DNA of 64,000 nucleotides from Membranipora membranacea. Taxonomy: Eukaryota; Bryozoa; Gymnolaemata; Cheilostomatida; Membraniporidae. Location of the stretch: positions 1,736,001-1,800,000 of the forward strand of contig OU612068.1 in assembly GCA_914767715.1 (NCBI GenBank). The letters run 5' to 3'. Below, in pieces: positions 11,694 to 58,900 of this stretch. How positions within the stretch are numbered: the stretch's first letter is position 1; each line of letters starts with the position of its first letter. The translations under genes and the position numbers were made by a program. The notes below the pieces were generated by a model that worked only from the letters and a program-made list of their open reading frames with translations, was not told the origin of the DNA and did not search any database.

Positions 11694-12559
11694 GAGACGA
11701 GGCCGGTTGTTGACGCAAAGCATCACTCTACTTTATGCCTTCAGCTTCGGCGCCTCAATCACATTTTACGTTGCCTTGATGTTGTCTGGTGTCGCAGTTT
11801 AAGGTCAGAGACCAGCGTATTAGGAGCTAATTCGTTGAAATCGAAGCCACAGGTGCAAGTCATGTTGGTAATCCTTCTTCTTAATTGCCTAAGTTCTTGA
11901 TGACAATTTGATTGAAAAGCTACTCAATTGCATAAAGTAGATAGTCAGCCCTTCCCACCACTATGCCATTTTCAGGATCTTGTGCATTATCCAATGGATA
12001 AAGCCAGTTTTTTCCTCTAATGTTTTGTACAGGCCAAAAATATGATTGCCTAAAACCTGTCATTTTCATAACTATATATAATTATTATCTGCTGTTATTA
12101 GCTATTTACTATGGCAACCAAATAGGGGTTTATACCAAAAAAGTGCAGGTAATCTTTTTACTTCTGGCATTAACTCCGACATGAAAGCTACACCTGCTCT
12201 TTACATATGTGAGAATATTGTTGTTGAGGTTGGAGCCAACTAACGTTTATCTGGGAAATTTTCCTTTGCTTCATCATCAATGAGTCATTTCCTGTTTGAG
12301 CATGACCTCCCCAGCTGATATCAATATAATCCAAACAACACATAAAATAGAGTCTCATATAATAACATGTTTTTGACTGACCATCAAATGTAAGGTTTCA
12401 TGACGTCACTGTGGGTCGGTATATACCCAGGTATTTTCACAATAATGTAGAACTGTTGATTACAATGATGAGGTCACAATGAAGAGCATACCCTTACACT
12501 GTGGTAAGGTGTCGCAAAACAAATATGTTATGCCTCGATGAAGTTTGATCCAGTATGCC

Positions 12560-12589
12560 CAGAGACTATAGATATATCTATAGTCTCTG
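12560..12589. mobile_element. Micro-palindromic insertion, class A, 30 bp
   Basis: A perfect 30-bp palindrome that starts CAGAGACTATAG and ends CTATAGTCTCTG. It is flanked by a perfect 7-bp direct repeat GTATGCC (12,553-12,559 and 12,590-12,596). The paralogous segment near 1,630-1,650 lacks both the palindrome and the second flank, so it is an empty site. Confidence 0.85.
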
Positions 12590-12609
12590 GTATGCCTGCA
12601 ATCAAATCT

Positions 12610-12669
12610 TTCCCCTCCATTGGTCACGCCACAGGCAAAAAGGCCGGCGGCGTGACCAATGGAGGGGAA
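12610..12669. repeat. Short foldback: 21-bp perfect inverted repeat
   Basis: The arms at 12,610-12,630 and 12,649-12,669 are exact reverse complements (the outer end reads TTCCCCTCC) around an 18-base GC-rich loop. The corresponding part of copy 1 (1,660-1,715) is not a clean inverted repeat. No target-site duplication was found. Confidence 0.75.
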
Positions 12670-13357
12670 GCAACTCCGAATGATGGTAAATGGACCAAAC
12701 TTGGTCTTTAGTATGACTGACTGGCTGTAAGCCCTGACATACATGTTTCTGAGTTAGCTCGCTCATCTTACCATAATATATATAAATATAGTTTTAATTG
12801 TATCCCGAAGCAATTTTCAGTGTAAAATCCAAAATTGTATAAACTCATGTAAGGCTATTTTGCAAAACAAAAATCCAGATGAGCGTTATCAACTGCACGG
12901 CCACGGCCATCGCCTTTTTGTTCCTGCCTTTATCCAGGTTCATTATATGAATGGTACTGTAACAAAGAAATACCAAGGATATTGTATTCTTTTTTATGCG
13001 TTTTTTGGTGTTTTGGCACTAAATGTAAGACATTTTCCCCAAAATGATTTAGATTGCCAAATAAAGTATTAAAAAAAAATCTCTGCTGGTATTATGGTGT
13101 GGTGCTTCGAGATATGTCGATTGAAGGCTCATATTTGTCGGACTCGTATCAAGATCCTAATTATGTTCAGGAGTTGGCCAGCTGATTGAAGGAGAAATGA
13201 TCTACATCAGGTACGGTCATGAAAGGAATTTAATTCTGTCCATCATCCCTGATTACTTTAGTGCAATGTGATATTTTTGGAACCACTAGATTCTAATCTT
13301 TCAAAGTAACAGAGTTAATTGGCAAACAAACACATAATACGCAGATTGTGATAAGAC

Positions 13358-13392
13358 CATAAAGATATTAATATTATTTATTTATGTTTATG
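13358..13392. mobile_element. Micro-palindromic insertion, class B, 35 bp
   Basis: Ends are CATAAA and TTTATG, flanked by a perfect 8-bp repeat GATAAGAC (13,350-13,357 and 13,393-13,400). Copy 1 of the old duplication (about 2,830-2,850) runs straight through without the insert, so the empty site is visible. Confidence 0.85.
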
Positions 13393-13590
13393 GATAAGAC
13401 ACATAAACAATGATCAGTGCCATTTTGTTAGATTATGTCAAGGTGTAACCAGGCACTCCGTGTCCTCCTCGTTGCTTGCAGAGATTTCCTGTACCCATAT
13501 TTCCTGCACTGGACCTGCAGAGGGTGCTTCTTCTCCCGGTAACTCAACCACAGAAGAGTTAGCGAGTCTATCTGTCAAATTTAATTTAAC

Positions 13591-13624
13591 CATAAACATA
13601 TAAATGCTTTTTTATATGCTTATG
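13591..13624. mobile_element. Micro-palindromic insertion, class B, 34 bp
   Basis: Starts CATAAACATATAAAT and ends with the near-complement ATATGCTTATG. The flanks AATTTAAC and GATTAAAC match at 6 of 8 positions. Copy 1 near 3,005-3,025 lacks the insert and reads directly into ACATAAAAGAC. Confidence 0.7.
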
Positions 13625-14433
13625 GATTAAACATAAAAGACATGAATTGATGGGAAACTATTTAAATCATATTTTATACCTACATATTGGCCATTGGGAC
13701 TTGATTTGTTGGCAGCCTTGACATTTAAACAATCCAAACGATACATGAAAGTAAACTACAGTGCGGACTCGATCAGATTGTAATATATAACAGTCCTAGT
13801 GCGGGAAGGAATAGAGTCAGGTGATGTTAGCCTTATCTCAAAGCACCCCTTTTTGGTAAATAAGGGATCCTCCGATAGAAGGCTAAGGTTTTTATAGCTG
13901 TTCATGAAGAATAATATTTTGACATTCTATAAATCTAGCTGAGTTCTACCTGCAGTACTGGCTATTCCTTATATCATCACAAGCTAGTCCGGGCAGGCTG
14001 TCGGCGGTGGGTGCCCAGGCTAATCACATGCTTACAGGATGTAAATCGTTATTAATTACCTAGCGATATATGTTTAGGACAGCAGTTACCTTGATCGCAA
14101 TCGGTATTATAACAATATACGAAGGATGGGTGTGAGACATTCGAGCCAAACTTAATACATATAGTATAGTAAGTATATGGGTATATCAGATAGGAAAAAT
14201 CTCTCCAAACCTCAAGCAGTGAACACTATTGGTAGGAGATTTGTGATAGGACTCGACCATCCCATGAAGCCTATGAAAGATTGTCCTAAAAAATTTGCCT
14301 AAAAATATGTATATGTATACTGGCCATTAGCGGCTATCACCAGATTTTTTACAAGAAAACCCAATTTTGCAACATACCTCCCAAAAAGCCATAATTTATT
14401 TGAATTTCCGGAATCCTCACTGAAGGAAATGAT

Positions 14434-15155
14434 ATATAATTATTAGGCCCCTTAGGATGTATGCAGCATCAATAGGGGAAACTGAAGTCAAATTTAGTAT
14501 CTAAAATCTGGTCCCAACTCGCATGTAGGGAAGCTTACTGCAACTTGCAGGCCGAAGCCTGCAGGAGTTTTGTTATATGATTCTTGGTCCAGATCTGAGG
14601 ACGTTTACAAGGACATTCAGGGGAGATAACTACCCTAGAATGATCATTTTACCTTTGTCAAAATGAGAGCAGGGAGGGTGAGATGATGATGAGAGGAAAG
14701 TTGGAAAGCAGTACACTAAAGTGATGCATATATATCCTTACTCTGTAATACTATCCTGATTGACTCAGGGATGGAGAGAGGATTATTTGAATTAGGAATT
14801 GTAAAATATTTTATACCCTAAAACTTTTTGTCCAGACATGGAAAAATCTGATGTCCAATGGCCATGTACTGATACAAATTGTAATCGCAGTCAAAACCTT
14901 GCTGTGGTTAAGCCTTAGGATCGGACTTGAACTTAGGGTTGAAGTTGGAGAATTTTGGCGGTCTTTGAAAAATAAAATTACGGCGTATGCTACATGAGAG
15001 GAACGTATTTGACTTTCAAAGAAACATCATTGCCTCTTACAATAATGCTTACATGGTTAAATATAGGGACGTATACCAGTTTTTGCACGTTGTCAATTTG
15101 GTATAAAAATATGATTACAGATTGAAATTTATATATGATTCCAATAAGTGTAAAT
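14434..15155. repeat. Young direct repeat, copy 2 (B1)
   Basis: Partner of 1-815. In copy 1 the young repeat precedes the old duplicated block, and here it follows it about 310 bases later, so the two blocks are not one simple tandem unit. No coding capacity is recognised. Confidence 0.85.
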
Positions 15156-15478
15156 ATACCTTAAACTATTCTTTCGAGTTTGTTCTAGAATATTACTTCT
15201 TCATCAATCAGCATGTTTCGTCACAACAGGGTAAATCTTTCATGAATTGGTTTTTAAAAGCCGGATTGATTTATCAAATCCTGGCACCAGATGAGAGCAA
15301 AATCATAAAAGATTTGTGGTGTTCTGAATTAAGCCAAATAGGTAAAGGTAAACAGATCCATGAAAGATCCAGGTGACATGAAAGTACCACCTGCAGCTTG
15401 TTGTCTGTCGAGTTTAGAGCCACCTGGACAGAAAGTAACTTGGCCTTGCTACGTGGTGCTTTGTTGATAAGGTTTAAC

Positions 15479-15500
15479 CAATGAACCAATAAGTTCATTG
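15479..15500. mobile_element. Micro-palindromic insertion, class C, 22 bp (weak)
   Basis: CAATGAAC and GTTCATTG ends around a 6-base centre. The flanks GTTTAAC and GCTAAAC match at 5 of 7. It is listed because the same termini occur with better duplications at 19,400 and 61,527. Confidence 0.4.
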
Positions 15501-15794
15501 GCTAAACTGAGTTGGAAAAATCTTTATTCCATGAATTCTATTTTTAATTCGACCCTTTGATTTCAGGTGACACAATGTAGGCTGAACAAGAAAAAAGATA
15601 AAATTATAATATGGTATCAATGAATTCTCAAAATACCAAACATTATCATTTTTCTCATTCCCCCCCCCCCCCCCCTACTTTCGCCTTGATTTTGTTTGGC
15701 GCGTTATGGAAAATAGGCCAGCAGCGGCTATACATAAAAGGCTCTAAAAATAACATCTGCGTAAGTGTCTTGAACAGAGAAAATTGAAGACTGT

Positions 15795-16258
15795 ACCTGG
15801 TGTAGTTTTTTATGGCCGTTCTGATGACGCATATGTACCATTTCACAAATGGGGCAAAAAGGGGCGAATCCAAGTAAGAAACACGAAAAAGGGGGTTAAA
15901 AGGGCGTTTTTTGCAATTTAACTTCTCTTGGCAAAGTTCATAGAATGAAGCAGTGTCATTGAATTTTTTTTATCAATATCATGCATATCTGGAGTAGTTT
16001 TTGGGAAAATATCATACAGCTAAACCCAATGATTGACATTTTACAGACAAATTGTAGTCACCCCTCGAACACAGTTGCGGCATAATAATAGGTTTTGTGC
16101 AAGCGTGCAAGAATAACATTGATAAATGTACTTCTCATGTCATTTTTCATAATTGTTTATAAAAAGACCCCATCATAAAGTATCTGGTTGTGTAATAATA
16201 AATTGAGAATATATGAGAAAGGGGTGGATCCAGTTGGGATGTGAAAAACAGGTAAACG
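15795..16258. repeat. 0.46-kb direct repeat, copy 1
   Basis: About 85% similar by eye to 16,528-16,990, with the same orientation and a ~733-base period. Both contain TTTTTTATGGCCGTTCTGAT and TATCAATATCATGCATATCT. On the minus strand each copy can read CPIC..VHMRHQNGHKKL, but the rest of the frame is poorly conserved. Confidence 0.85.
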
Positions 16259-16382
16259 TTTATGAAGTTTTATTCTGGTAAAGCGTGTAATCTGATTATG
16301 TATTTTGAATTTAATAGCTATTTTAAAGAGCACATAAGTATCACTGCTAAAACAAAACAAAGAAAGGATGCAAATTCATACT

Positions 16383-16512
16383 AGTTTAAAGGTCAAGTTC
16401 TTCATCATCGGTAATTTGGTCATACTCATCTTGCTGAGTGTCGTCCCTGCCATTGTCGCATTGAAGGTATCCACACAATTGCGTACAATGCAAACCGGCC
16501 TTCAAACATGAG
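16383..16512 (-). pseudogene. Remnant of a cysteine-rich (CXC/tesmin-like?) coding exon
   Basis: On the minus strand the frame reads GGCSCLKAGLHCTQLC and then an acidic tail ending DDEELDL plus stop. The Cys spacing recalls tesmin/TSO1-type CXC domains, in which short CxC and CxxxxC blocks bind zinc. A CPICKIVHMRHQNGH stretch from the 0.46-kb repeat lies just upstream in a different frame, so the two parts are separated by a frameshift and an in-frame stop. There is no start codon or complete gene, and such tails also occur in proteins of multicopy elements. The call rests on motif shape only. Confidence 0.4.
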
Positions 16513-16527
16513 CATCCACCGCTTTTG

Positions 16528-16990
16528 TCTGGGGCAGTTTTTTATGGCCGTTCTGATGGCGCATATGTACTATTTTACAAATGGGGCAAAAGGGGGCGGA
16601 TCCAAGTAAGAAACGTGGAAAAGGGGGGTATATAGAGCGTTTTTTACCATTTAACTTCTTTCGGCAAAGATCATAGAATGAATTGGCGTCATTGAAGTTT
16701 TTTATCAATATCATGCATATCTTGAGTGGTTTTTGAGAAAATATCATACTGCTAAATCCATCTATTGACGTTTTACAGACAGATTGTAGACACCCCTCAA
16801 ACACAGTTGTGGCATAAAAATAGGTTTTGCGCAACCTTTCCAGAATAACAGCGATAAACAAATTTCATATGTGATTTTCATTATCTTTTTATAAGAAGAC
16901 CCTATTATAAAATAAATGGTAGCAGTCTAATTATAAATTGGGAATATATTGAGACAGGGTGGATCCAGTTAAGATGTGAAAAACTGTTAA
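16528..16990. repeat. 0.46-kb direct repeat, copy 2
   Basis: Partner of 15,795-16,258. On the minus strand it has a 119-codon open frame with a possible zinc-binding CPICKIVHMRHQNGH. The open frame is not preserved in copy 1, so it is probably not a gene. Confidence 0.8.
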
Positions 16991-17239
16991 GATGCGAAAA
17001 ACAGGTTGAGTCCAGAAACTTCTTGCTAATGAGTGATCAAAAAATTGCATTTAATAATAATTATCTCACTGGGGTCACCTAGAATTGAGTGAAACTAGAC
17101 CCGAATTTCGCTGCGAATCCAATTATGTAAAGTTCATAACTCTCCGAGTGCATATTCTTTCTACAGAGGCTAAGAAAAGACAAAAAAGTTGCAAAATTTC
17201 GTTTTTTAATGAGCATTCTGTTGTGTATTATCTACCAAG

Positions 17240-17765
17240 GCACAAACAGATCCTCTTTATTGACTTATTGAGAGGTGCAATACAAGTACACACCAGTATA
17301 AACAAAGATATATCCACAATGTGACCAGTGTCAACGTGAAGGAAAGCAAAGAAAGACGAACTAATGTGCTTATCAAATGCATCGAAAACCTGTATTGATA
17401 TAATACATTCTTTATCAAGGTAAAAATCCAGTCAATGGCTAATTGGAAGGTGAGATATATGTACAAACATATATAAAATTGTTACATAAAAATACAATAA
17501 GTGAATACCAACAATAATATGACCTGGGTAAAAAAGAAGGAAAGCAAAAAAAAGGAGTATTTCCTGCTGTGAAAACCAGTATTGATAAATACATTCAAGG
17601 TACAAATCCTCTTCATTGACCAATTGGAAAGTAGATATTGGTACAAGCCTGTATCAAATGAATATATACAGCAGTAAAACACATACCTGCAATGTGACCT
17701 ATGTCAACGTGTGGGCATGCAACAAAGGACATCAAGAATATAAAATTCATGTGAAAACATGCATT
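17240..17765. repeat. Degenerate tandem repeat, ~175-195 bp period, three units
   Basis: Anchors recur near 17,322, 17,519 and 17,694 (GTGACC.GTGTCAACG-like), each followed after a similar distance by AAAAC..GTATTGATA and then a TTGACTTATTGAGAGG or TTGACCAATTGG block. Many small overlapping ORFs here arise from the repeat structure. No protein was recognised. Confidence 0.55.
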
Positions 17766-18824
17766 GACACAAATGCATGCAGAGTATTTTTGTACTTGGT
17801 CATCATGTTAAATTTGGTGCTTCTTAGTCTTGGACTTTGGCAATGATCTATGATCGGAATAGTTATTTTAAGCCTTTTTGCGTGGTTCTTCCTCCTTCGC
17901 TGTATCACTGAAAGAATGATAAAACTCAAGATTAAGGAGAGGAAATATAATCGCATAACTGGATCTCAACTCAAGTTAACAGCAGGAGGTAGAACAACCT
18001 TTGAGCAAAAAATGATTCTATCTCACATCACATCTAGCAGCTAAGTTAAAAAGCTTGCAAAACAAATCTGTTGGAGGAATATGTTATTCGTATTACAAGC
18101 AAGTAGATATATAAACACGGGGGGAGGAAGGGGGGTTATGGCTTTCTTGTAATGGATGTCAACTGCTTAGACCTATGACATCACCCTACACATATTTTAC
18201 AAGCAGACTCTTCTTTAAATAAAACATAGATGCTGACATAGATATAACACTACAGAAATAACCTATAGTTACCCTAGAGGAGTAATATTTGGCTTAGTTT
18301 AGCTAGTTTATGGGTGACTTAATGTTAGCTAACACTAACTTTTGGCAAGCAGTACTGAGGTGAGAGTCTAAATGAAGTAAGCCTTGGATGTCACCTGTCT
18401 TAGGAGTGTGTGAAATGGTGAACATCTCCTCCAGCAAACTATTTACTCCTCTAGAGTTTTCAAGGTTTTGAACTATCCTTCACCTTTCATAAGTCTTCCT
18501 GGAATAGTATTTGATGGCAGCGTGCTTCTCTTGCCACATCTTCAGAGTTTTCAAATATATAATAGAAAGCTCTCTATTTCATTAGCTTGAGCCGCTTGGT
18601 ACAAGCCAGCTGAAAAAAAAAACGAATCGAGCATCTGTAATTCATAAACACTGAACAGTAAAGAGTAACCAAGCTGTCGCCTTGTTTCCGTTGTCATCAT
18701 CACTACTAGATGTATCTTCATTCTAAATACATAAATGATAGTTTGATAACACTGCTATCACAACACATTAACACTACTGATAATGCTAACAGAAGTGTTT
18801 TGCCTTGCTAGTAGTAACAGCAAT

Positions 18825-18970: not shown

Positions 18971-19399
18971 CGTAAGCTGTAATAGCGAAGTTACTCCTTG
19001 CTGAAAGTAAGGTCAACAATTCCATAGACCTATTTTTTTTACATAAACCCAATCCTTTTAAATTATTGATTTTCTAATAATATTGATAACCTACCATCAC
19101 ATTGAAACACCTGGGATGAGGATAGGCTACTAGTACTAGAAGAGACACTAGTATGTTCATGAAATAAACAAATAAATGTACTTGTAGTAAACAAAAACAT
19201 TGAAACCTGAAAGTGATGTAAACTATCACAATCATTCATCTTAACACTCACATTTTTCCTGGTGTGGGCTTTCTGTGCAGCTACTAGTTTTGTTATGTAA
19301 ATCTCAGATAGCAGATTTTGTGAGCATAGAAAGAATGTTCATTTCTATTGTCATCATTCTCCATTCTATCACAATATATATCCCATGATCATATCTTAT

Positions 19400-19428
19400 C
19401 AATGAACTAACTAAGGTTAAGTTCATTG
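19400..19428. mobile_element. Micro-palindromic insertion, class C, 29 bp
   Basis: Ends CAATGAACT and AGTTCATTG. The flanks ATCTTAT (19,393-19,399) and ATCATAT (19,429-19,435) match at 6 of 7. The termini match 15,479 and 61,527. Confidence 0.6.
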
Positions 19429-20537
19429 ATCATATGCATTATGATGGTAGCTTATCTCTCTGATCCAGAGTATATCAGTAGCTTCCTGCAGCTCAGGCTG
19501 TTTGTCTAGCAAAACCCAATCCTCAGCTTTGCTCAGAGCATTGTCCAGTTGCTGTTGTGACAATTTAATCAGTGGGTTTTATCATATGCTCTGTGTTGTG
19601 GGAATTGATGCAGCAAGCCTCATGGTTGGCGGCCATCTTTTATAAACAAAAATGCTCTGCACTGTCATTGGCTAATCTTCAAAATTATCCATTTTGATTG
19701 GCTAAATGTTGCCAAGTAACTTTTGCAAGTTAGTTCTGCAGAAATATTGTAGAATCTGCATCAGAAAAGAATTTTAGCAAAATATTATTTATTGCCCCAC
19801 TTATGGAATAGTACCCCATCAAAAATCCAAACAATAATGAATATCATTTGATTATTTGCTATTAATTTTCTCTGTTCATCATCCTTACACACAATGAAAC
19901 AATAGTGAGGTGCTGCTGCTGGCCTAAAAGATCTGTCCAGGATGATTTATTGTCTGCCAAATAAAAAAATGTGTATAATAATAGGTTTTCAAGGTGTTTT
20001 AGCATTGTGCACCGATTGGATACTTGAGCATAGAAATAACCCATGGTATCATGAAAAAACAGTCACTGGTTTGGCACATAGACTTAATATCATTGTTAGT
20101 ATGGCATCTACCGTTAGCAATCTGTAACCACGCTTTCAGCCAGTAAGGAGTTGTCTTCTCTCAATATATGAGTAGAAACCTCGAATGAAAAATCAACATT
20201 AATCCCAAAAAATCAGCAATAGGAACGAGCTAAGAACATCGCCTTATGGCACTCGACATGATATCGGCAGACAGCAGCACAATGCGTTTTTCAGCGCAAA
20301 CTCTTGGTGGACTTCGAAAGAAATGACTTAGAATATCAACTGTGCGTGTGTGGGGTTAACCAGGCTCTTTTGACTGTTTTAGTGAAAAACTGAAGACTGT
20401 GCTGTAACTTAAGAGAGTTGAAAGGTGCCCTAAATCTTGATACTGAGGGTGGGATACATCCTAGAAGTTTGAATCTGTAGAAGACATCCTGAACTGTGAG
20501 TGCAGCAAGCAACTGGTATATACAGCCATTGGTGGTG

Positions 20538-20621
20538 AAACTTTGATCTTAGCCCATAGGCAGTGACACTTTGATCGTAACCCATAGACAGTGAGACTTT
20601 GATCATATCCCATAGGCAGAC
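20538..20621. repeat. Minisatellite, 28-bp unit x 3
   Basis: Three imperfect tandem units, each containing ACTTTGATC and CCCATAGRCAG. The apparent ORFs across it on the minus strand (repeated MGYDQS-like peptides) follow from the repeat and are not taken as genes. Confidence 0.8.
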
Positions 20622-22341: not shown

Positions 22342-25300
22342 ATGATGTTGAACCTAAGATGCTCACAGTTTATCTTTGTTATGGGAATAATCTCCCTTGC
22401 TTATTCGCAGTCTGAAATACTAGATGATCCTGGTTTCGATGTACCGATTGGATCATCTGACTGGACTTGCCACGGATCTTGTACAGCTGTACTGGATGGA
22501 GACAGCCACGCTGGAAGTAACTCAGTCCTCATTACAGACAGGTAAGTTATAATTCAGAGTATATGTAAGGGCTACTTCAGTAATAAGATAATGGTTAATT
22601 TCATTAGATAAAAGTGCTCTAGAAAAAAAATTAAAATTTTGGACATTTTGGACTTCTTATTTTCGATGGATCATTTACCTCTATCTATTTTTCATCCCTT
22701 TCCATTCAACTTGACCTTCATAGCCATGTGTCTGTTTTTTTTTACTTTTCGGCATAATTTTCATTCGATGAGAATGTTTTACAAAATCAGCCATCGAGAA
22801 AAAACAATAAAATGGAAAAAATAATTTCAATCAAGAAGATGAAAAAGATAATCAGAAAAATTACATTTGAATGATTTATAATTGGTTTGTGTAATAACAT
22901 TAATGAAAAAAAACCTCTGAAACTCTAAGAATCTCTGCCTAACCATTCCTATATATTGAGTTAGTCGTGATGGTGCTGAATGAGAATAACTGTCTGTTAT
23001 TTAGGAAATTGATAAGCACAATAATCGAAAAATTGGAAGATTGTTGGAGTAAAAAGATTAAAACTTATCAATTTTTTTAGAACGGCGATATACAATGGAC
23101 CCAAACAACAACTAGTCTTAGATGAGAATGCAGTAGTCGGAAGATCTTATCACATCAGTGGGTTTGCAAAGATTCGGCAAACCCAAACAAACCAGCAAGG
23201 ACAAACACTATTTATTATGATAAGGTTTACTCTTCAAGGTACATTCTAATACATTACAACACAATTTCTTCCTTGTGAAGTAGTTGATGATTACTTACAC
23301 TTCGTAACCATAATCACTGCTCAACAGGGCAATGGTGAAAATTTAGTGTGCCTTGAAAATCTATTATTTAGGCTCTAGCTGTGACCTCAAGCCATTTTTA
23401 TGATTAATTATTAATATTGACTAGAGATCAGAAGTAATCTTGAAGACCTGCGAGTAGGAGAGCGTTCTCTAGTATCAAAAATTTATTTTCCTTTGATTTT
23501 TGCTTTGCTTGTTGTTTAGTAGAATGGTATTTGAACTCTTTCTGAATTTGTTGAGGTTCTGAACAAATTTGCATGAATTTGTTTACTTCTGACTATCAAC
23601 ATATGTATCAAACTGTTAATCGATGAGAACACAAAACATCTTTTCCAGCTACATGCGAATATTCACTTGTTCTCTATATAGTCAATTTGGGTACAATACT
23701 TTGCTGTTAGAGACAATACTTTGCTGTTAGAGACAATACTTTGCTGTTAGAGACAATACTTTGCTGTTAGAGACAATACTTTGCTGTTAGAGACAATACT
23801 TTGCTGTTAGAGACAATACTTTGCTGTTAGAGACAATACTTTGCTGTTAGAGACAATACTTTGCTGTTAGAGACAATACTTTGCTGTTAGAGACAATACT
23901 TTGCTGTTAGAGACAATACTTTGCTGTTAGAGACAATACTTTGCTGTTAGAGACAATACTTTGCTGTTAGAGACAATACTTTGCTGTTAGAGACAATACT
24001 TTGCTGTTAGAGACAATACTTTGCTGTTAGAGACAATACTTTGCTGTTAGAGACAATACTTTGCTGTTAGAGACAATACTTTGCTGTTAGAGACAATACT
24101 TTGCTGTTAGAGACAATACTTTGCTGTTAGAGACAATACTTTGCTGTTAGAGACAATACTTTGCTGTTAGAGACAATACTTTGCTGTTAGAGACAATACT
24201 TTGCTGTTAGAGACAATACTTTGCTGTTAGAGACAATACTTTGCTGTTAGAGACAATACTTTGCTGTTAGAGACAATACTTTGCTGTTAGAGACAATACT
24301 TTGCTGTTAGAGACAATTTTGCTGACTTAATTATGTAATCACTCAAAACATATACTGTAGATGAAACCAAAAGGTACCGAAAGACAAAGACTCGCAACAA
24401 TGTCCAGCCGAGTGATGGTTGGGTTGATCTGTCGGCAGATTATACATTCCACGGTGAGGTATTTTCCAACAATGTCTATCTATCTATTATAAATATTCCT
24501 GCTAAAGTATGAACTATCTGATTTAACCATAAACATATAAATACTATTTATATGTTTGTGGATCTAACTGTTGTAATTTTGTCTCATCATGTATAAATAG
24601 TTGCAGTAATAAATTTCTTCTGCTGTATTCCTACAGATTTTGGCCAGCCGCTCACTAGACTGGATTTGTACGTAGCTGGACCCGAACCAGGAATCGAATT
24701 CCAAGTCGACACAATGTCTGTGAAAATGGTAAGCTTCAAAAGTTTAAGATAAGGTAGGAGGTGTGCTTCAGGGAAAATCAGGGTAATATAAATACTTATA
24801 TCCTCATCTCAGTCTCTTATACAGGCCGAGAAGTGAAGGAATGACCTTACAATAGGAATCTGTTCTCTATAGGTCATTACGTGCAGACAGCTATTAGGTA
24901 GGTAATCGCGTCTTCACTCAACATTGCTGTTTTATCTACCAAGTGGGGAACAACTATATCATGCAGACTTATTAATAGCTCCTGTTCTGAATTCTGTGCC
25001 TCTTCAATGCCAAAACAAAGCATTTTATCAAAATCCATTTTGGTTTTGTAGCATAAAAATCTTAATAATAATCTTAAATCTTATTAATAGTCCAGGGCAA
25101 GGCCGAGCTGGATCACATGTCCTGTCTAGGGAGATCCCTTTCCACTCCTTGATACAGTAAGGACAGGTACTCCATACCCGAGCCCCGATCGGAATCCTGG
25201 TTTTAGGTTTACAATCTAAGATTATCTTGCCTGAGATCAGACCATCAGGACCTGGCCGTCCTGTCAAGAGTCCTGACTGGCTTTGACCTTTTTGACATAA

Positions 25301-37030: not shown

Positions 37031-37500
37031 ATATCCAGGTTACCATACAGGTCAGCTGTGGGTAATTAGCAGAACCAACAATTCGACCATTCAATCAATT
37101 TGTGATCGCCTGACGTCAGTTGGATAAGTTTTTCAAATGAATGAATCAATTGCCTATGAGTGCCTGTACATACATTACAACCCAGTGCATAGTTTTTCGA
37201 TGTCTGACCCAACTCTGCCTGAATTATGGGTAGTGGCATTCCCTTATCTGACCGCGCAGCCTACCCACAGTTGGTTTGGTTGTGGTTGATAATTAAACCT
37301 GGACTTAAAGTAACCAAGCACAGGCCAATGACCTCCCTCTAGTTCATTGAAAAGGTTTTGTGTATTTTAATCGTTACTTACACAAAACTAATGTCTCTGC
37401 TAAAAAACTGTCAGCAGTTTCAACAGTACCTGTCGTGAGTATTGATGATACCTTCACAGAGCGAATTGTTTCTGTATAGAAATAAATCTATCCATGTATC

Positions 37501-37539
37501 CAGATTATGAAGATAGATATTATAGAATATTAGTCTCTG
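37501..37539. mobile_element. Micro-palindromic insertion, class A, 39 bp
   Basis: Starts CAGATTATGAAGATA and ends TAGTCTCTG. It is flanked by a perfect 7-bp repeat ATGTATC (37,494-37,500 and 37,540-37,546). The inverted pairing is imperfect, as expected for an older copy. Confidence 0.7.
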
Positions 37540-38352
37540 ATGTATCTATACTCTTATATGAGAGGGGAGATATAGCCTATAGGACATAAGGCTAATATAT
37601 TATTCAAGAGCTCCAAATTATAAAAATATTGCATCCATGTTCTCGCAGTATAACTCAATTTGATGCGGAGAGAAAATATCGGTGAACTGTGTTAAGTTCC
37701 TGAAAGTCATCACTAATTAACCTACTTGTTTAACAGGGCGACAGGGAATAGATAAAAAAAGTCGGTCAACTCTAGGTAAGGGAGTTGCTCTCTCTAACAA
37801 CAGAGCTCCCAAGGTTATAATAAGTGCTGTACTAGATATGAAAGCGGAGTTAGCCAGCAGCAATGCCTGGAATAGAGTACAATAAAATTAGAAAGAAAGA
37901 AAGAAGCCTTGAACCTGTAAATCGGTCAGAATTACTCACAGTGCTCAGATTTTGTGGTGTTACGCTATCAAAGATTTCTTTTAAAGAATTTAACAAAAAT
38001 CCCAATGACATTTAAAATTTAACTCATTGTTTTGAATACTGGATGTTACCGCTATTGCTGGTGTGGCCCAACCATTCATTTGTCATCTATTGGCTTGTGG
38101 TTTGTATCTACCTCCATAAACACAATTGCATCATATACATAGAAAATATCGTTTTAAACAATGAAGTAGGGTTTTTCATTGCAAAGTTAGAAGGGCCTAC
38201 AATGATAATTGCGATAGAAATGTGTCGCTATCGCAGATTTACAATGTGACACATGGCGGGGGGGGGGGGGGATTCGATGAGTGCTGAATGCAAGAGAAAC
38301 ACTACGGTTGACACATCGATAGTTGTTAGTTATGTCCACAGGTCCCAAGTCG

Positions 38353-40549: not shown

Positions 40550-41878
40550 CTATACCTTACCACTCATCTTTTCATTGTCCAGTGACTCTTTATCATTGTC
40601 TGTGCTATCCTCTCGACATTCCAACTCCTGCTCAGTGTCCACTACATTGTAAACTTGGCTCCGTTTGTCAAAACCGGTTGTCTTTCGTGTTTTAGCTCTG
40701 GGTTGACGGTCTGCTTTTATTTTTTGGAACATTTTCCTATTTCGATGTAACTGCAATAGAGCAATCTCGGCAAGGACTTCAGCGATACCGAGCAAAGCTA
40801 AACCAGAACCAATGTTAAGCATGAATGTCGTCAGATCAAAGGCCCGAGCTTTAGCCTCAGTTTTCAAAAGGAAGAGTATTCCGTAAGCTTTGATCAGGGA
40901 TCTTTTATGGACGCCATCTTCATAATAATTGAGAGGATAACGGAAGTTGTATCCACTTGAGAAAGAGTTTCCCTTATAATTATCTAACCTTGTAAAGTCA
41001 TACTCTGGTTTACAGTCGCTCTCTGGATAATCAAAATTGCAGTCCCATTTCACGGAAATAGACACCACACCGCCTTTAATGGCCATATCATGAAACCAAG
41101 AGTCATCTGTCTTAAAGTCGTCTGACATGCCTTTGGTTTTGGCAATCCCTACAACATCACCCAATCTGAAAATTGGACAGTACGGTGAATGTTTGGGGTG
41201 ATATCTACATCCTCTCAAGTAAGTTTTGTTGATCATCTCTATAAAGTTACTCCTGGTTCTATTGTAATGGGGAAAGTAGACATGGTTCTTGATTAGGACG
41301 GTAAAATCTGCAGTATGTTGGAGTTGCGCCTCCTCTTCCCCTTCTTCATAGTAATCATTTTCGATAGGACACCAGGCTTCTACCATGCACATATTGGACT
41401 CTTGATCACATTTTCCGTTACTAACACCGTGTCCGAGGTGGAAAGGTTTGCCCACAGGAAGGCAATCGTCATCTGTTGAGCAGTTTGCTCCCCATGTGCC
41501 TTTCTGTGATTGACAGATACCTTGTGTCTGGTTTTTAGTCAGGATGATATTAGTTGTCAAAAAGAACGCGCCATCATCCTGTGGTGGGACGTGGAGATCT
41601 GCAGAATCCCAGATACGCCTGCCAACTCTGGGATCTGTGGAGTTGCTGTAAGCTATTCCTTTAATCTTATTAGTTGTGCCGCCTATGGCACCATTGTCAA
41701 TAAATTGGTAACCATTATTTAGAATGAATACCCAAACGATCACCAAAGCGAATAAAATAAGCTGTAAGATTTTGTGAGAGACTCCTACGAATCGAGATTC
41801 GATTTCTATAACTTTAGGTGTCTCATACGAGAAGAAGTATGAGCTTATTCGTTTCTTTATATTTTCTCCTGCTCCCAT
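40550..41878 (-). CDS. P2X: P2X ATP-gated cation channel, coding sequence in a single exon
   Basis: Predicted trimeric, ATP-opened cation channel of the plasma membrane, 442 residues. Visible features are the N-terminal TPK phosphorylation site (20-22), TM1 (about 37-53), ATP-contact lysines in NKIKG (71, 73), all ten ectodomain cysteines of the family (six in the head region, then GCRY…PYC and WDC…SDC), the NFR motif (311-313) with HKRSLIKAYG (the ATP-contact Lys near 330), and TM2 (about 352-372, LNIGSGLALLG). The C-tail is short and basic then acidic. The usual YxxxK trafficking motif just after TM2 is not evident. The ORF has no introns. A strong acceptor (pyrimidine tract plus CAG) ends 3 bases before the ATG, so a 5' UTR intron is likely. 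The matching donor (AAAAG|GTGAGC) is at 42,098/42,097. Confidence 0.95.
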   Translation of the reverse strand: MGAGENIKKRISSYFFSYETPKVIEIESRFVGVSHKILQLILFALVIVWVFILNNGYQFIDNGAIGGTTNKIKGIAYSNSTDPRVGRRIWDSADLHVPPQDDGAFFLTTNIILTKNQTQGICQSQKGTWGANCSTDDDCLPVGKPFHLGHGVSNGKCDQESNMCMVEAWCPIENDYYEEGEEEAQLQHTADFTVLIKNHVYFPHYNRTRSNFIEMINKTYLRGCRYHPKHSPYCPIFRLGDVVGIAKTKGMSDDFKTDDSWFHDMAIKGGVVSISVKWDCNFDYPESDCKPEYDFTRLDNYKGNSFSSGYNFRYPLNYYEDGVHKRSLIKAYGILFLLKTEAKARAFDLTTFMLNIGSGLALLGIAEVLAEIALLQLHRNRKMFQKIKADRQPRAKTRKTTGFDKRSQVYNVVDTEQELECREDSTDNDKESLDNEKMSGKV

Positions 41879-42172
41879 TTTCTGTAAAGAAACACAACAA
41901 CAGAAAATCAGTTATTAAATTCTCAAAGAAGTAATATAATCACTTTTAACTACGACCCTCCCAATCCATCTCAGATAAAAGAAGGATTTTAGATTCTTAA
42001 TAAATTTATCCAAGGTTCGAAATTAACTAAACAGCCTACAAATTATTAATATTACACCCTACAAACATGGCAAGTCAGAGTTTTTTCCTTGCTCACCTTT
42101 TTGAGAGATGTATCCTATGGAGTATGAAGCTTAGTGAATGATGAAAACCTTGACAGATAATTTGTCGCCAGG

Positions 42173-43901: not shown

Positions 43902-46900
43902 TCAGAATATATCAGGGCAGCGAGCGAAGTCCTGCTTTTCCTTAGCTTCCCAATATTCTCCGGTATATAAATGTATGAGGTTACCTGTCGTCGGGTCCTT
44001 CGATTTTTTGAACCAAGCAGGTTGGTATTCTGGAAAGTTTTTACCTGCAAAATATAATTGAACGTTAGTAATTATATCCAAAATGAAATCTCACCTAGCA
44101 GAAGCCCTTAACGCTAATCAATATGCCTACCAACAGAAACTCAGTACCACCGATGCAATACTGCAGTTGATAGATGACTGGACATCCGTTCTTGACTCAA
44201 ATACTAATGTGAAACTAATACAAAATGCATGCCTTGATTTTTCCAAAGCCTTCAATAGGATGCAGCACCCCATACTGATATATAAAATGAATCATCTTGG
44301 TTTTAACGCTAATGTCATTGCCTTAGTAGAAAGTTTTTTGGAGTCAAGTCAGCTGTGTAAAATACTGTGATAATTTTTCTGACTACAAACCCATTCAAGT
44401 CGGTGCCCCTCAAGGAACCAAACCGGGCCCCATCCTTTGGCTAATTTATGTCGATGACTTAAAATCTTTTGATTATGACAGAGACTATAGTCTCTAGTCT
44501 ATAGTCTCTGATTATGATACAAAATGTATCAAATATGCTGATGATACAACCCTTTATAGGCCTATCGTTGATCCATCCACTGAGAACATATCTGATGCAA
44601 TACTGTTGGCAAACACCTGGTCTGAGCAAAACAACATGATTTTGAATTCCAGCAAAACTGTGATACTGAATGTAGCTTTTACAAACAAACCTGCTATGCA
44701 CCTTGGTATAACCTATGGAGATGATAACCTCTTTATCTCTCCCTCTGAGCATACCAAGTTTTTAGGCGTATTCATAGACAACACACTAACTTACAGCAAT
44801 CATGTTGACTATATTATAACTAAATGCTCTCAACGATTATACTTGATGAGACTGCTGAAACGCATGGGCATGGATAGTGATGGCCTCAGAACCTTCTATA
44901 TAGCTAACATTAAGTCGTAGAGCAAAAATAGATAAATATTGGCCATCCAAGTGTTGAACAACCAAAAGACAAAATACCTTTTTTGAATTTTATATGCGAT
45001 TTTTTAACTAATGCAGCTCAGACTCCTTTTATATTTTTTTCCATATATGTGCTGTACATTGGATGCTATCAACCTATCACGGGATGGATATTAGAATTTA
45101 GGCAATAAACAAACTTCAACTTCAACTTGTCTATAATATAAACATATTACGCCGAGTTTCAGACATCCTAATACAACAAATATAACCAGGTCCCCCCCCC
45201 TCATCAGTAACAGCAGACACAGATCATGTTAGATCCGCTCAGCCTGCACTCTCCTCTACCAATAAGCTGCCGTACATGTCAGCTTTATATGAGTGGAGTC
45301 AAAATGGCGGCAAACTGCATCAACAGCAGACCTAGTCTGTACAGCTCATTAAATCTTACAGTAAGTGGCTAAACGAACAAGCTTTTAATTTCACAAGCTG
45401 TTAGCTTTCTCTTAATCATATTGTACGCCTGTGTTTATTGCTGTATAAATTCTCAGAAAAGCAGGTGGTTTTCGATTTCTTGGGAGGCTTTCACTATCTT
45501 ATCGATCAGCACTAACAATAATGGCTCACCAGAGAAATCAACTGCTTACAGTGAGAACATCCAATTATCTGTTAAACCGAGAGTGGGATGGAATTTTGTT
45601 TCCCTAGTGTCTGGTGCGATTGAAAATTAGCTGCACTAAGGCTGGTCACTTTTTATTAATTTCCGTGAGGAAGTGGCATTCCATTAGAGATGCATGAATA
45701 AAAAAAGGCAGTTACACTTCCTATCAAATCTATATATCGATCACCCGTCTATTACCTTCAGCAGTAGCCAGCTCTGCCTCCCTCTCTCTCAGTCTCCTAG
45801 CAGCTCTCTGTTTGTCCTCTAGCCTCTGTTTCTCTTTAGTAGCTGCGTCCCAGTCTGTGTTCTCCATTTGTCTCTGATCCGGCCTGTGACGTGAGTCTGT
45901 AGGAGCGATATTCTCCTCCATCTCATTCAGCTCTATACCCAGCTGTGTCATGTTATAACATTTCTCTAGGTATGATCTGAAACAAACATGGGAAAGTGTG
46001 AAAGTATGATCTGAAACAAACACGGAGAAAGCGTGAAAGGTAAGATCTGAAACAAACATGCAGAAAGTGTGAAAGGACAACAATATCAGCGAAACTCTTT
46101 CTCTTTGCGCAGTTTGCAATTATTTAGTCATTTTAGTCATTGCCACTCTAAACCAATTTAATCTGGTTAAAAGCAGAGGGTCTGATTTCCGTCCCCCCTC
46201 CCCGGAAGTTTTGCGGCATTTATTGTTGCGGCATTTCTAGTTATTATGCCAGAGCGCTTTAAATTATTCAAGAAATTCTGAAGTCAGCCCATGAACTGAG
46301 CAGCCCTAAGAAACGATATGATAGGATCAGTGTTTGATTTGAACTCAAGCACAGGGTTTTTTGACACTGGGTTGTTTGACCCATACTAGAGGCCTAGAGC
46401 CATCATTAACCCAGGCATAAGACCTCTGCTACATCTTGTTACAAACACTTCAAGTTGTGATTGTACTGCTGGTAAAATGTAAATTGAGGTGATGATGATT
46501 TAACAACATTCATACTGCTAAAACCCATTATCCACAGACCAAAACAAGAAAGTACATTCAGTTGATGTCACAAACAAGTGATGCCTGATCTCACATACCA
46601 CAAGTAATGTATACACGTGATATCGTCTGCGTCAGGGCTGAAGAGGGTAGTGACGTTAGATCTGACGTTACAAGGCAACATGGGTGAAAAACAAGTGATG
46701 ATATATTGAAACAAGTGATGATTTAAAAACAATCTTCGACTGATATCAATGACTATTTAGTATCTTTGACTGATATGGAGATCTTTTTAGAATTCTGATG
46801 AGGGCAGACTGAGGGTTTACAGTTTCTCACAGTATCTTCAGGATCACTAGGTACTTACCAAACCACAAAAATAATATTCATGGCAATTTTATTTTATAGA

Positions 46901-52900: not shown

Positions 52901-55900
52901 ACTGACAAGCAGCCCATAAGAAACATCCAGGAACACATGATGGATAGGCTGAAATGCCTGTTGACACAATCATTGCTTGCTATGAGCACTCCTTGCTAAA
53001 AAAAGAGTAGACAACCAACATCATTTTCCAGTCACCTCCCTTGAAACAAAGCTAGAACATGATAGCTTATGAATCATCTACGACTCGCCAAAGAATCATC
53101 AAACCAGTACCTGGTTCTCGTCTGAATATCTCTTATCTGTTTGGGAGTCGTACCCACATAAGTGCTTGTCGGAGGCGTTGCATCATCAGCAAAAGTTTCT
53201 AGAACTTCTCGATTTTGAGGCGTCAACTTTTTGTAACTTTTTTCGCTAGGCCCGACCATGTATTCTGTACTCCAATACAGCGACTCATTAGCGCCTTGGG
53301 AGACAGAAGGGGCTAATACAGTACTGGTGGCTGAAGCAAGCTGCTGAGATGTGTCACTGTTTGTCACCCCTTGAGTTTGCTGATGTGAGATGTCTTTGTT
53401 TGAGTATATCTGATTTGGAGGACTGACATTACTCCCTCTGCTATGTACCTGCTCAGGTTTATTACTGCTTACGACATGACTAAAGTTACCCCTGATACTA
53501 GGCCCCCCACTGTCAATCCTACTTAATGACCTCTTCTCATGTTTTCTCACAGAGTCAGCAGTAACTCCTGAATATCCATTGTGTTCAGTCCTCGTTTTGT
53601 CCACTATTTGTCGGCTTTCTTCTTTTTCAGAGCCGGCAATATTTTGTACCTCTGGAGTAACTTTTCTATTCAGTCCCAGAGAATTTCCCCTAAATGATTT
53701 TTTGACAGGGGTTGCACTTTTCACCTTCTCACACAGAGAATGATTGCTGCCCTTCGCTCTGTTTGCTGACCTACACATACCCAGCTGGTTGCTGAGGCTC
53801 CTCATTCTAGTCATCAAATTATTTTCTGACTTTGAGAAAATCTTTGATTTTTTGTTGCCAGCATCATCTGCTCCGGTAGGATCTTCTAACTTAAACCACT
53901 CTTTGCGAGTTCCCTGAGTTGACGCAGTTTTCCTCTTGCCAGGATCATCAGCGGTAGATATACACAGGCCACAGTATTGCATTTTGATAACACTAGTAAT
54001 ACTCATGTTAAACTCTAACCAGCATAATACCAACAGACCTAATAAATGTCCTTTATAGTCTAGCTAGTAGAACCACATCACTGACAGTACGCATGGCGTT
54101 GCACAGAACTAAGCAAGACAAAAACTCGAGCGCATCGCCACAACATCTCAACAATAGACTGGTCGAGGCTTATCCTGATCGACTCATACAACAACAAGAA
54201 TTTATAGAACTCACTCACATGAGGCCTTGTAGTAGTAGAGCTGCCATTCTTTCTCACCCATCCCTAAGTGAGAACAATACAAGAGACACTCTTAGCTCTC
54301 ATAGGCTGACCTGTCACTTTGATGCCTCTCCCATTCAAAGCTATTTTTTGCTTACACAATCAGATTATTTGCAACACCTATCAATAGGACAGCAGCTCAC
54401 TATTGTCGAGAGTTGTACCAGCGTTCAACGGAAGAGCATAGTACCTTATTATGATGAACATTACTAACATATTTCCTTACGAAATATGTATCAATGCTCA
54501 AATCATATACCAGGTGGATAAAAATCAGATCTGATTGGGCGAGCAGCTGTGTATTCACGATCATACAATATATATTATATACCACAGTCGGTTCACAGCA
54601 TTTTTCTATTCTTGCCTATGGGTGTCAAGTATAAGCAAAACCCTGTTTGCACAAATTATGAATATACTATAAAAGCTTGGGAAGATACTTTGAGGGCTGT
54701 GAGGGCTGGCCAAATCTAATTACTGCAAGGTCATCAAGCTGCCAAATTAAACTGTTCTAATTAACGATGAGATTGGGAAGGATGATACATGGAACTTAAT
54801 TACATCACGATATCATACAATCAAATGTCTCCATATCCAGAGTCACACAGACTAGATCGATACCCAACAAATCGTCCATCATTTGGGGCCAACAAAGTAA
54901 CAAGGATAAGGTCAAGAGAGAAATAGGGAAAACGACTAAGAAATGAAATAATTTCCCCACAACGCAGATCACATGTCATGGGAAAGAAAGGTAAGTTTAG
55001 ATTTTGTAGGAAAACACTCATGATTATAAAGAAAGATGAGGAAATATTAAACGATTATCAAAAGTCGGCAACAGCCAACAATAGAATCAGAAATATTTCT
55101 CAAAGTAGACAGCATAACAACATTGATGATATAATCCAAGTCTCCAGCTGCCGCTGCTCACATTTCTCTATTAGGAAAACTATCACATACACTAGCTACT
55201 GATCTGTTACTGGGATGGAAATTATGTACCAACAATCACATGCTGAACAATCAAGAATTGACCGTCCAATCGAATACATGGCGTATTGAGGTTTGATAAA
55301 TTGTGAGCTGTAGGGGAATGCAACTCCAAACATAATGGAAATGGGATAACTGATATTGAGAAAATTAATCAATTTTTTTTGAGCCGAACAAGGTGATTGG
55401 TTGGTTAAAAGCCTGTGGATCACCTGATTGTCTGATTAGGCAAATGGGACAGGACAATGATAACAACATTCTACTACTGACCTTAGGCCCCTAATGATAA
55501 GAAAATAATAAAAAAATCTCTAGAACAAGTTAAATGACACAGACAAAAAGACACAGCTCCTATAAAACGGAATGAATGAAAACTTGAGCAATTTATTGTA
55601 GCAGTCCAACCTGACCCTCAACAGAGTTTATGAAGATTATCATGTGTTAAGGGGGGATGGGCTGTTGAGCAATATTGTAGTGTAACTATCAAAGGGAAAA
55701 CAACATAGGGCCATAATAAACACAACCAATACATGTGACTGACGTCAACCAGGTTAATTTCCCTAACCACGTAATATACCTTGACCTAATTACGCATATA
55801 CCATGACCTAATTACGTGAATGGAAATGGTTTCCCTTCAAGTGGCTGATTCCATAACCAGTTAGAGCAGAAATTATGATTACCCCTTGGTTCAACCAGTC

Positions 55901-58900
55901 CGATGCGTGACTATCTGCTACTGAATATTCTCGTCAGCATAGCAAGTGTGTGAAGGCTTGGCATGACGTACTTGACAGGATAACATACTCTAAACTATTA
56001 AGGGGCTCATGTTTGGAGCTTAGCTTGAGTTCAGTTTATAAATCGTCACAGTATGTCCAAGATCCTAGTACCAGCACTATAGCCGTGACAAGGCTACCAG
56101 CACTAGGTTAGGGTCTTGAGCTTGAAGTCTGCGGGTAAAACAACTCCAAAATAGCAAAATTTATGCACACATATTTTTCATGTAAGGCTCAATTCTGTTA
56201 TATATTTCCTATTTACCTGCATGAGTCTTACTGACAGGCTTGTGCAGACAGACAGACAGACAGAGTCTAACCAGATACTATAGAATATCTATATATGTAT
56301 CCATAGCCTCTGGTCTAACCTTATAAGCCTATCAGCATTACTTAATCAGTATAGGCTTGCATTGACCTATTTGCTTATTGCCGACCATCGGACTGATAGG
56401 AGTCGTTTTCCCTGAATGATTCCTGAGCATACTTACATGTGTCCTTTGTGGTGAGTTTGAGCAGGAGATATGACAACTGTAAACTGCTCTGTCTGCTCCT
56501 CAACAGCATCCTCAAAATCATCCTCGTCATCGCTTGATACAACTGCAATCAAATCCGTGGAGCTCATTGTTCTTTGAGATTTAGTCATAATAGCTACTAG
56601 ATTTCGTCTAGCATACGAAACTACTGTCACCAGCAGTGCAAGCATCAGTCAAAGATAAGTTATTAATCCAACTTTTTCTCAGTTTACTGGACTATAAAGC
56701 ATTACAGAACCAAAGCATTGCGCACAGATCTACGGTGTAACCCTTAATGCGACAAAAACATGAGTATTTGCAAAATATTTATACAGCAAATGTCACCGTA
56801 GGACAAACAGCTATGTCATGATGTATCAAGCTGAGCTGGAAAAGAACCCTAGCAGTGACTGGTATTTCAGGTCGGGGTAATCTTAACTCGGATAAACCTT
56901 TCCCTCCCTGAATCAGCGCCACATTACTGCTGTTATTGTTATGGTAGCTGAGTTTGCGATATCCTGCTAAGTGTGAGATTAAAACAGAGTTCATGAAAAG
57001 CTCTGCACTGTTGACACTGAGCAAGAGAGGACATTGACAACCTTCAAATGTCCGGAATAATAAGAGTAAGTTCTCAACTAATCAAACATGATTAGCTTGT
57101 TAAATCATTTCGAATCTGTGCTCTGCTCTGAAGGTTGCAATCAATATAATAGTACAATCATGATTCTTGCACACACACCAATGTCCTGATCAGAAGGTGG
57201 GCAAATGGGTTATATCATTACATTGAGGATGGATGGTTTGATTGAATCACTAAGCGTGTTCTACTTGATGTTTTGCTATGGAAGGGGGAGGGGGGCTTGA
57301 ATGGTTTTATGCTACTATCATAGGAGAAAATTTAGCAAAGCCTATATTGTTAATACTGGGAACATAAAAGAAAGCATAAACAAACTATATAATGTCACAT
57401 TCAAAGAAAATCTTAATGCTGGAATCTTTTTTTTGGGCAAAAAGCTGTCTCTGCCCATGCACCTCTGTATTTTATTAATATGCAGAATATGGTGAATACA
57501 TATCTGTTGAGTTTGCATAGCGACCAATAGTATTTGAATTTAGCAAAGCAGAGCACTCTCTCATATTTAGTAACACAGAGATGATCGCTGACTTACCAGA
57601 GATGCTGTGTTTTTGAGCTGATGCCGATGTGTTACCCGCCCCGTCGGGCTGATTAACCATCGATCGAGCCTGGTGCTCCAGCGAGCTGTGCTGTTTAGCC
57701 AGATGTTCCACCATTGATTGAAGCGCTAGTCTCTCATCGTGTTCCCTCTTGAGTGTATTTTGCCACCTCCGCCCCTGTGCTATCACCAAATCTAAGTAGT
57801 CTTTGCTCGCCTGCAATCAGGATCAGAAACAATAATGAAAACTAATGTGTGTTAATACTGCGAGTACCGCACAGCAGCTCTCCTAGTCAGCTGTCTACTG
57901 AAATGCCGATCTAAATAACCTAGCTCGTGTCTAGGGAGTAAATCATAGCATGAATACTTAGATTAGTCTATGCATTCGTTACAAGATAAGAAAGGAGCGT
58001 TGAGACTGTAAGACATCTTTATTTTTAGTACTGCTTTATAAAAAATATAAAGGTTGCTTTCGAGGCCTATCTTGTTGTTGAGTGATGCCCAATTAGAAAC
58101 CAAACAAGGACTTTGATCAAATCTAATCAATGGCACTGCTCGTTACAAAGTTTGAAATCTAGCGGTTCTAACGAGAAAAGAATACTTTGATATGGGTGGA
58201 GAATGAATAATATATGATTTTCTGCAAACATCAACCTGTCAAAACTGAAGCCAATGGCAACATGCCAATTATTTCTAGCAATGTTATTTGCTTTAAACAG
58301 TCTGAAACATTGAAACATGATTTTTCTCCTGGCAAATCTTAGATGAGTGAATTTCAGATACGTGGCTAGATTCGATTCAAGGGTGCAGTTGAGTAATACA
58401 GTAGTTTCCTCATGTTACAAATGATGACTCAATAATATGTATAACAAAATGAGATTGTGTGCTCACAGCCCACAGTTTAATCTGAAGACCTTCTACTGCC
58501 ACATCACAGTCTAATATCTCCTTTGGGACCTGTTTAACCTTTCCAAGCCAAGATAAGACCGTCAAAGGACTTCAGATTGGATTAAAACTTAAGCGAGGAG
58601 ATAGGGCAGCCCTAGGCCGGAAACTGGATTAGGATCAACAGGTTACTCCTTCCATGAAAATGTTAAAGCTTGTGGCCTACCAGCCTGAGGATCATCTCAA
58701 ATCAAATTTAAATTAGACATGGAATCACTGCTGATCGTCTGTCTTCAACTTCAAAACAACTCCCCCACACAATGATGTAGAGTGTGAGATACAGGGCTTT
58801 CTTACATTGATCATAGCGTTAGTAGTGATCCTGAAGAGAGTGGCTCTCTCGTTGATGGCTTTCATCTTAGTAGAGGTATCTCCCTCTCCTGACTGTATAT

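Follow-up and report, generated by a model that had tools for sequence, protein, structure and literature searches.

Departed transposons often leave little trace. Target duplications of 7 and 8 base pairs (bp) are the sizes given for the P superfamily (PMC3276498); two of its branches, 1360 and Galileo, are reported with 7-bp duplications and with the target sequences GTTNAAC (PMC3276498) and GTAGTAC (PMC2775673), respectively. The second strand of the P element is described as being cut 17 nucleotides (nt) inside the terminal repeat (PMC7776569), and repair junctions of the Drosophila element P{wa} as keeping the target duplications, up to 17 nt per end, microhomologies and templated insertions (PMC2895639). 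The present analysis concerns 64,000 nt of the bryozoan Membranipora membranacea (contig OU612068.1, positions 1,736,001 to 1,800,000), this whole stretch being called the window, and four micro-palindromes within it that are each flanked by a 7-bp duplication and are designated here as family A. On the comparisons presented below, these are with high probability scars left by the excision of cut-and-paste DNA transposons of the P superfamily, and not tiny elements.

The window was scanned exactly for CAG...CTG inserts of 10-150 bp, each duplication length being tested in turn. Perfect 7-bp duplications were found at all four sites, at the positions where the initial annotation had placed them. 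The first insert (12560-12589; 12553..12596 with its duplications) is a 30-bp perfect palindrome, as had been described; it lies between copies of GTATGCC at 12553-12559 and 12590-12596 and equals two 17-nt tails (see below) overlapping by TATA. The second (37501-37539, 39 bp; whole 37494..37546) and the fourth (56272-56312, 41 bp; whole 56265..56319) are rich in filler and carry ATGTATC and GTCTAAC, respectively, on each side. The third (44479-44510, 32 bp; whole 44472..44517), bordered by ATTATGA on each side, is located in a reverse-transcriptase frame and repeats CTATAGTCTCT of its end in the interior. No strand is assigned to these or to the other short inserts of the window. The same scan gave no match at 6 or 9 bp and eight at 5 bp, while one 129-bp insert at 7 bp and one 114-bp insert at 8 bp were unrelated matches. 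A further site at 8482-8499 (CATAGACC...GTCTATG), with a poor duplication, was excluded.

At two of the four places the sequence before insertion could be approached. An unoccupied paralogue of the first scar site was recognized at 1640..1646 (no strand assigned), where a single 7-mer, GTTTGCC (one mismatch), occurs without insert and the aligned flanks are about 68 % identical. Among the four sites only this one has a paralogue within the window, and here the flanking 7-mers do not belong to any larger repeat unit. At the third site, deletion of the insert and of one 7-mer leaves the reverse-transcriptase frame open across, while the frame as observed has a stop within the insert. The empty paralogue and the restored frame imply that something really inserted at both places and, judged by the duplications, an insertion very probably took place at all four.

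Family A ends were abundant in the assembly as a whole (339 Mb, 18 contigs). The 12-bp end CAGAGACTATAG occurred 1025 + 1055 = 2080 times, against 27 + 52 = 79 for the reversed pattern, and two perfect 12-bp ends separated by a gap of 0-30 bp were present at 510 sites, against 0 for the reversed control; being perfect, this 12-mer search misses the second and fourth window inserts, whose ends are imperfect. All of the 27 two-ended sites picked in C1:0-14.02 Mb by their ends alone, a choice which avoids circularity, displayed the 7-bp duplication (23 perfect, four with one mismatch). These ends were thereby shown to be over-represented together with 7-bp duplications, and the view of the initial annotation that a real class had arisen from independent insertion events was sustained. 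Two further families taken up below, E2 and C, counted 120 and 58 short two-ended sites genome-wide, again with 0 for their reversed controls. A chance, tandem or low-complexity artefact, to which the AT-rich middles of the inserts and the long TA runs held by many family C scars might point, has against such controls and the 27 duplicated sites a practically negligible probability.

Loci were fetched for all 100 listed matches of the 12-bp end, which lie in C1:0-14.02 Mb, and gave 68 rows. Forty-six of these measured 18-52 bp and had a 7-bp duplication, which was perfect in 42 and bore one mismatch in the others. Four rows were long, three of them being real copies of 1248-1262 bp; the fourth (L005, 1353 bp) has one end in common with the 1248-bp copy and does not count separately. 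Where a duplication was matched, the row was either short, at 18-52 bp, or at least 1248 bp long, with none between. The duplications displayed T at position 2 in 86 % and A at position 6 in 84 % of cases, a pattern that agrees with the target sequences of 1360 and Galileo. Their length, initially remarked upon as unusual in animals, is generally so, but 7 bp is also what has been published for 1360 and Galileo (PMC3276498, PMC2775673) and is one of the two sizes that characterize the P superfamily.

The initial annotation had taken the 30-41 bp objects themselves as the inserted elements. This view could not be maintained, as the inserted entity would be a P-superfamily transposon, represented by paired copies of 0.9-4.5 kb. 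A 23-bp extended form of the end occurred 78 + 80 times genome-wide (control 0). Among the 100 places listed of these 158, 68 made up 34 pairs and the remaining 32 were single ends; 32 of the pairs spanned 928-1299 bp, one 2220 bp and one 4523 bp. The last of these, L080 (C2:17676189-17680711), is bounded by perfect terminal repeats of 32 bp, with GTTAGAC following on either side. In all four long copies read, the terminal repeats were perfect and 32-33 bp long, in keeping with the ~30 bp expected in the P superfamily; among the three 1.2-kb copies read, two had a perfect 7-bp duplication and the third one mismatch.

The P-type transposase comprises a THAP domain, a helix-turn-helix domain and an RNase H domain split by a GTP-binding domain. 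Pieces of such a transposase were detected above the cut-off on the minus strand of L080, namely a THAP domain (E 9.6e-10), the N-terminal part of the RNase H domain (E 7.6e-22 and 4.6e-11) and its C-terminal part (E 1.7e-9). Because these THAP and RNase H pieces lie inside a 7-bp duplication with shared ends, family A is best placed in the P superfamily. The carrier was found only through the listing of long ends; eight transposase loci of 5.5 kb each, fetched separately, all lacked family A ends. The P-type RNase H family gave 134 matches in this genome against none in 14 control genomes, although this control is a weak one. A relationship to hAT elements, suggested by the CAG...CTG ends, was dropped in view of the 7-bp duplication and the P-type domains of L080; hAT domains were not searched genome-wide. 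Compared with L080, two 1.2-kb copies (L006 and L007) were 82-87 % identical in their end regions and 66-67 % in one inner stretch, and the 1.2-kb copies of family A seem to be relatives of L080 that have lost internal sequence. Interrupted gap-repair copying can yield internally deleted elements. On contig C3, three long family A copies (21769903, 21901103 and 22061284) of near-equal lengths displayed spacings close to those of three nearby PF21787 matches, suggesting that they were carried in a segmental duplication.

The anatomy of the short inserts was analysed on a set of 50 family A scars, made up of the 46 from C1 and the four window sites. These comprised 31 distinct sequences (30 if strand is ignored). 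Their junctions were of overlap (24), blunt (two) and filler (24) types, with much of the filler holding pieces of the tails, as in the third window insert; beyond the tails, no interior was common to the 50. The recurrent lengths were 30 bp (nine scars), 28 bp (five), 24 bp (four), 32 bp (three) and 18 bp (two). Self-annealing of the 17-nt tail CAGAGACTATAGATATA predicts products of 30 bp through TATA, 32 bp through TA, 28 bp through ATAT and 18 bp through CTATAG, while the 24-bp form fits annealing of TATA to an internal TATA. The 30-bp palindrome with no interior would accordingly be explained by two identical 17-nt tails annealing by their last four bases (TATA).

These figures also bear on the idea that the 30-bp palindromes are themselves mobile, as ultra-short miniature inverted-repeat transposable elements (MITEs) on which a P-type transposase acts in trans, so that the duplication marks the arrival of 30 bp. 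The recurrence of the 30-bp form is what this idea would lead one to expect, and family C displays it as well, at 18 of the 26 listed sites that form pairs. The variety of sequences among the 50 scars and the filler built of tail pieces are difficult to accommodate in this way, however, and the recurrent forms are precisely those predicted by self-annealing. The stubs, with no more than about 17 bp per end, also fall short of the end lengths given for mobility, and intermediate lengths are lacking among the rows with a matched duplication: movement of Drosophila P elements is stated to require end sequences of at least 138 and 216 bp, and mosquito P-derived MITEs are stated to retain less than 100 bp per end, with about 100 bp suggested by the authors as required (PMC1562414). 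Having neither a common interior nor enough end to be mobilized, the scars do not qualify as MITEs, and their being mobile elements is very improbable.

The extent of retention was measured on 138 ends from 69 scars, namely the 46 scars of C1 and 23 two-ended sequences with at least 12 nt per end by pattern, the four window scars being excluded. Exactly 17 nt were kept at 51 ends, 18 nt at eight and 19 nt at one, with none beyond. Scars with filler, whose two sides cannot overlap, had 17 of 54 ends at 17 nt and two at 18 nt. The ends of family A scars thus fit cleavage of the second strand 17 nt within the element, the cut position being deduced from the scars. An alternative origin is aborted gap repair, in which the break is copied from the sister and copying halts after a few nt, so that the products are extreme internal deletions and not end-joined scars. 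It draws some support from the 1.2-kb copies that resemble internally deleted relatives of L080 and from family E2, some of whose ends, at 20-24 nt, exceed 17 nt. Copying would be expected to take family A ends past 17 nt, but nine of the 138 exceed this length, eight by one base and one by two, and aborted gap repair seems a very unlikely source of the inserts.

Excision followed by end joining, the explanation preferred here, may be pictured as follows. A P-type element would insert with duplication of 7 bp of target, preferably at RTNWWAY, a step supported by the duplications and by the empty paralogue. At either end of the element the transposase would later cleave one strand right at the border and its partner 17 nt further in, as the anatomy of the scars suggests, and the element would leave, both chromosome ends keeping 17-nt 3' tails, CAGAGACTATAGATATA. 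End joining of the polymerase-theta type could anneal self-complementary stretches of the tails or copy tail pieces as filler before sealing, which fits the published Drosophila junctions. What would be left over are both duplications and a palindromic stub of up to about 17 nt per end.

A second P-type family, E2, has, as judged from its ends and duplication, also left a scar in the window, so that at least one further family, with 8-bp duplications, is represented there. The insert (6044-6111, 68 bp; whole 6036..6119) lies between 8-bp duplications, GCACCTAC, on both sides, and its ends match the P-type element of L072/L075. Two E2 elements of 4.9 kb were found on C1 (14435732-14440653 and 26749000-26753932); they are 98.9 % identical over 4734 aligned bases, and each lies in a perfect 8-bp duplication. 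The one that was scanned, L075, encodes THAP, Tnp_P_element, RNase H N-terminal and GTP-binding domains in one frame and the RNase H C-terminal domain in the next; the protein of the former frame is similar in sequence to the Drosophila P transposase of solved structure, 6p5a (E 7.7e-14). Family E2 thus combines the complete domain set of the P superfamily with an 8-bp duplication and matching terminal repeats.

Several observations weigh against excision and end joining as the origin of the inserts. At two of the four window scars just 4-9 nt of perfect end are retained, the ends of insert 37501 fitting the tail over 4 and 9 nt only and those of insert 56272 over 4 and 5 nt only. Eighteen of the 68 rows were without a matching duplication at the threshold used, and two of them, L035 and L059, are scar-like with plainly different flanks; together with L016, L019, L022, L025, L036, L038, L046 and L061 they form a set of ten that appear scar-like by eye, with eroded duplications or one-sided loss, and that were kept out of every scar count. 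The expectation of a transposase gene between these ends was realized in part: L080 carries P-type pieces, but its frames are broken, GTP-binding and helix-turn-helix domains were not detected in it, and no intact transposase with family A ends was seen. In family E2 the 17-nt limit is not obeyed, since in 50 listed sites, defined by their ends alone, ends were kept mostly to 19-20 nt and up to 24 nt; in E2 scars with filler, 16 of 36 ends stop at 20 nt and seven go further, which implies either a longer stagger or some copying before joining. Excision of zebrafish THAP9 is reported to leave larger flanking deletions, unlike the scars considered here (PMC10983969). Among the about 100 places listed per search, no locus was met with the element in one copy and a scar in another, no systematic search having been made; that every scar marks the former position of a full element is accordingly inferred from the scars themselves.

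Scars outnumbered resident family A copies. The C1 stretch held 46 scars and three long copies, and the whole genome 510 scars with two perfect ends and about 54 paired long copies (34 scaled from 100 of 158 places). The excess can be estimated as roughly 9 to 15-fold, a ratio which misses degraded scars, like two of the four in the window, as well as long copies with imperfect or single ends.

Scars of other families were sought in the window and the fetched loci together (264.6 kb). At 7 bp, 48 short inserts combined matching ends with a perfect duplication, most of them from family A as the loci had been chosen for it; at 8 bp there were seven, one of which is a composite across two adjacent scars in L062; a Markov control gave one and none, respectively, and the scan itself none at 6, 9 or 10 bp. 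A looser scan of 314 kb gave 61 inserts against four in the control at 7 bp, 12 against 0 at 8 bp, one against 0 at 9 bp and two against two at 5 bp, and several of its rows outside family A look like chance. Other recurring ends were CAATGAACTAAA and CACAGAGTAAGG, with 7 bp, and CATAAACATAT, with 8 bp. The 17-mer of CACAGAGTAAGG occurred 1094 + 1089 times genome-wide (control 0). The search pattern for family C used a chosen 17-mer and hence gives no reading of a retention limit.

In the window, two probable family D scars lie at 13358-13392 (35 bp; whole 13350..13400), with the 8-bp duplication GATAAGAC, and at 24528-24560 (33 bp; whole 24520..24568), with an 8-bp duplication bearing one mismatch. 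Two probable family B scars are located at 61527-61553 (27 bp; whole 61520..61560), with the 7-bp duplication ATTTGAA and ends that recur in L043 (twice) and L055, and at 19400-19428 (29 bp; whole 19393..19435), with a 7-bp duplication bearing one mismatch. Each of the four is weak when taken alone, the chance level for such a single site being 0-2 per window. Families B, C and D may belong with the P-type scars, an assignment made by analogy.

Adjacent scars were encountered in two places. In L062, a CATAGACTTAATATA-type scar (1497-1554; 8-bp duplication ATATAACC) sits exactly between the duplication of a family A scar and its first base. Its position at that junction indicates that it is probably later than the family A insertion, and that scars can be ordered in time. 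On contig C5 (17751982-17752050), family C palindromes overlap back-to-back within 69 bp, which may stem from successive excisions at the same place or from templated filler copied several times over.

Three other features of the window were recorded. Direct repeats at 6-674 and 14435-15128, 92-99 % identical and 14.4 kb apart with diverged duplicates between them, are possibly a recent segmental duplication or the terminal repeats of a large element. A long tandem array of the 20-bp unit TAGAGACAATACTTTGCTGT, with many identical units, occupies 23533-24412. A long open frame on the minus strand (40550-41911) corresponds to a P2X purinoceptor; its best named relatives include proteins of two bryozoans, Bugula neritina, at 48 % identity, and Watersipora subatra, at 52 %.

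Taken more widely, the scars may constitute a readable ledger, in which several P-type families left roughly a thousand scars, if not more, and few copies, excision in this lineage was mostly end-joined and not copied back, and the scars report the geometry of the cut (17 nt in family A, about 20 nt or more in E2), so that the stagger varies within the P superfamily; the chances that this holds as a whole are about even. Where the stub is long enough to name the family, a single assembly could give past insertion sites, numbers of excisions, repair outcomes and an estimated cut position with no need of experiments, and scars within other repeats or adjoining each other can give the relative order of events. 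Annotators should be warned that palindromes of 18-60 bp with duplications are mistakable for tiny transposons.

Among known systems, the P{wa} junctions share with the present scars both duplications, ends of at most 17 nt, short and long microhomologies and templated filler. They were laboratory-induced at one locus with an 8-bp duplication, whereas hundreds of scars are found here in one assembly, with 7-bp duplications in family A, whose self-complementary tail favours a single palindromic outcome. Like 1360 and Galileo, family A combines 7-bp duplications and a palindromic GTNNNAC-like target motif with membership of the P superfamily; it differs by its non-Drosophila host and by terminal repeats of 32-33 bp starting with CAGAGACTATAG, those of Galileo being long and internally repetitive. 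The P-derived MITEs of Anopheles (PMC1562414) are comparable to the 1.2-kb copies in being non-autonomous and in having P ends and flanking duplications. They are described with less than 100 bp of P sequence per end, a central region and 8-bp duplications, in contrast to the objects of the window, which have at most 17 bp per end and no common interior. In rice, 94 putative excision events over several plant superfamilies were reported from a comparison of the genomes of two species (PMC4423477). As here, the repair that follows excision, with its deletions and filler, was read on the scale of a genome. Those footprints needed two genomes, while the present scars are recognizable within one because the cut leaves a long stub. 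No genome-wide natural archive of P-element scars was found in the open-licence literature, as judged by titles and abstract openings. The mechanism is already known from the P-element footprint of Drosophila; it is the scale of the natural archive outside Drosophila that looks new.

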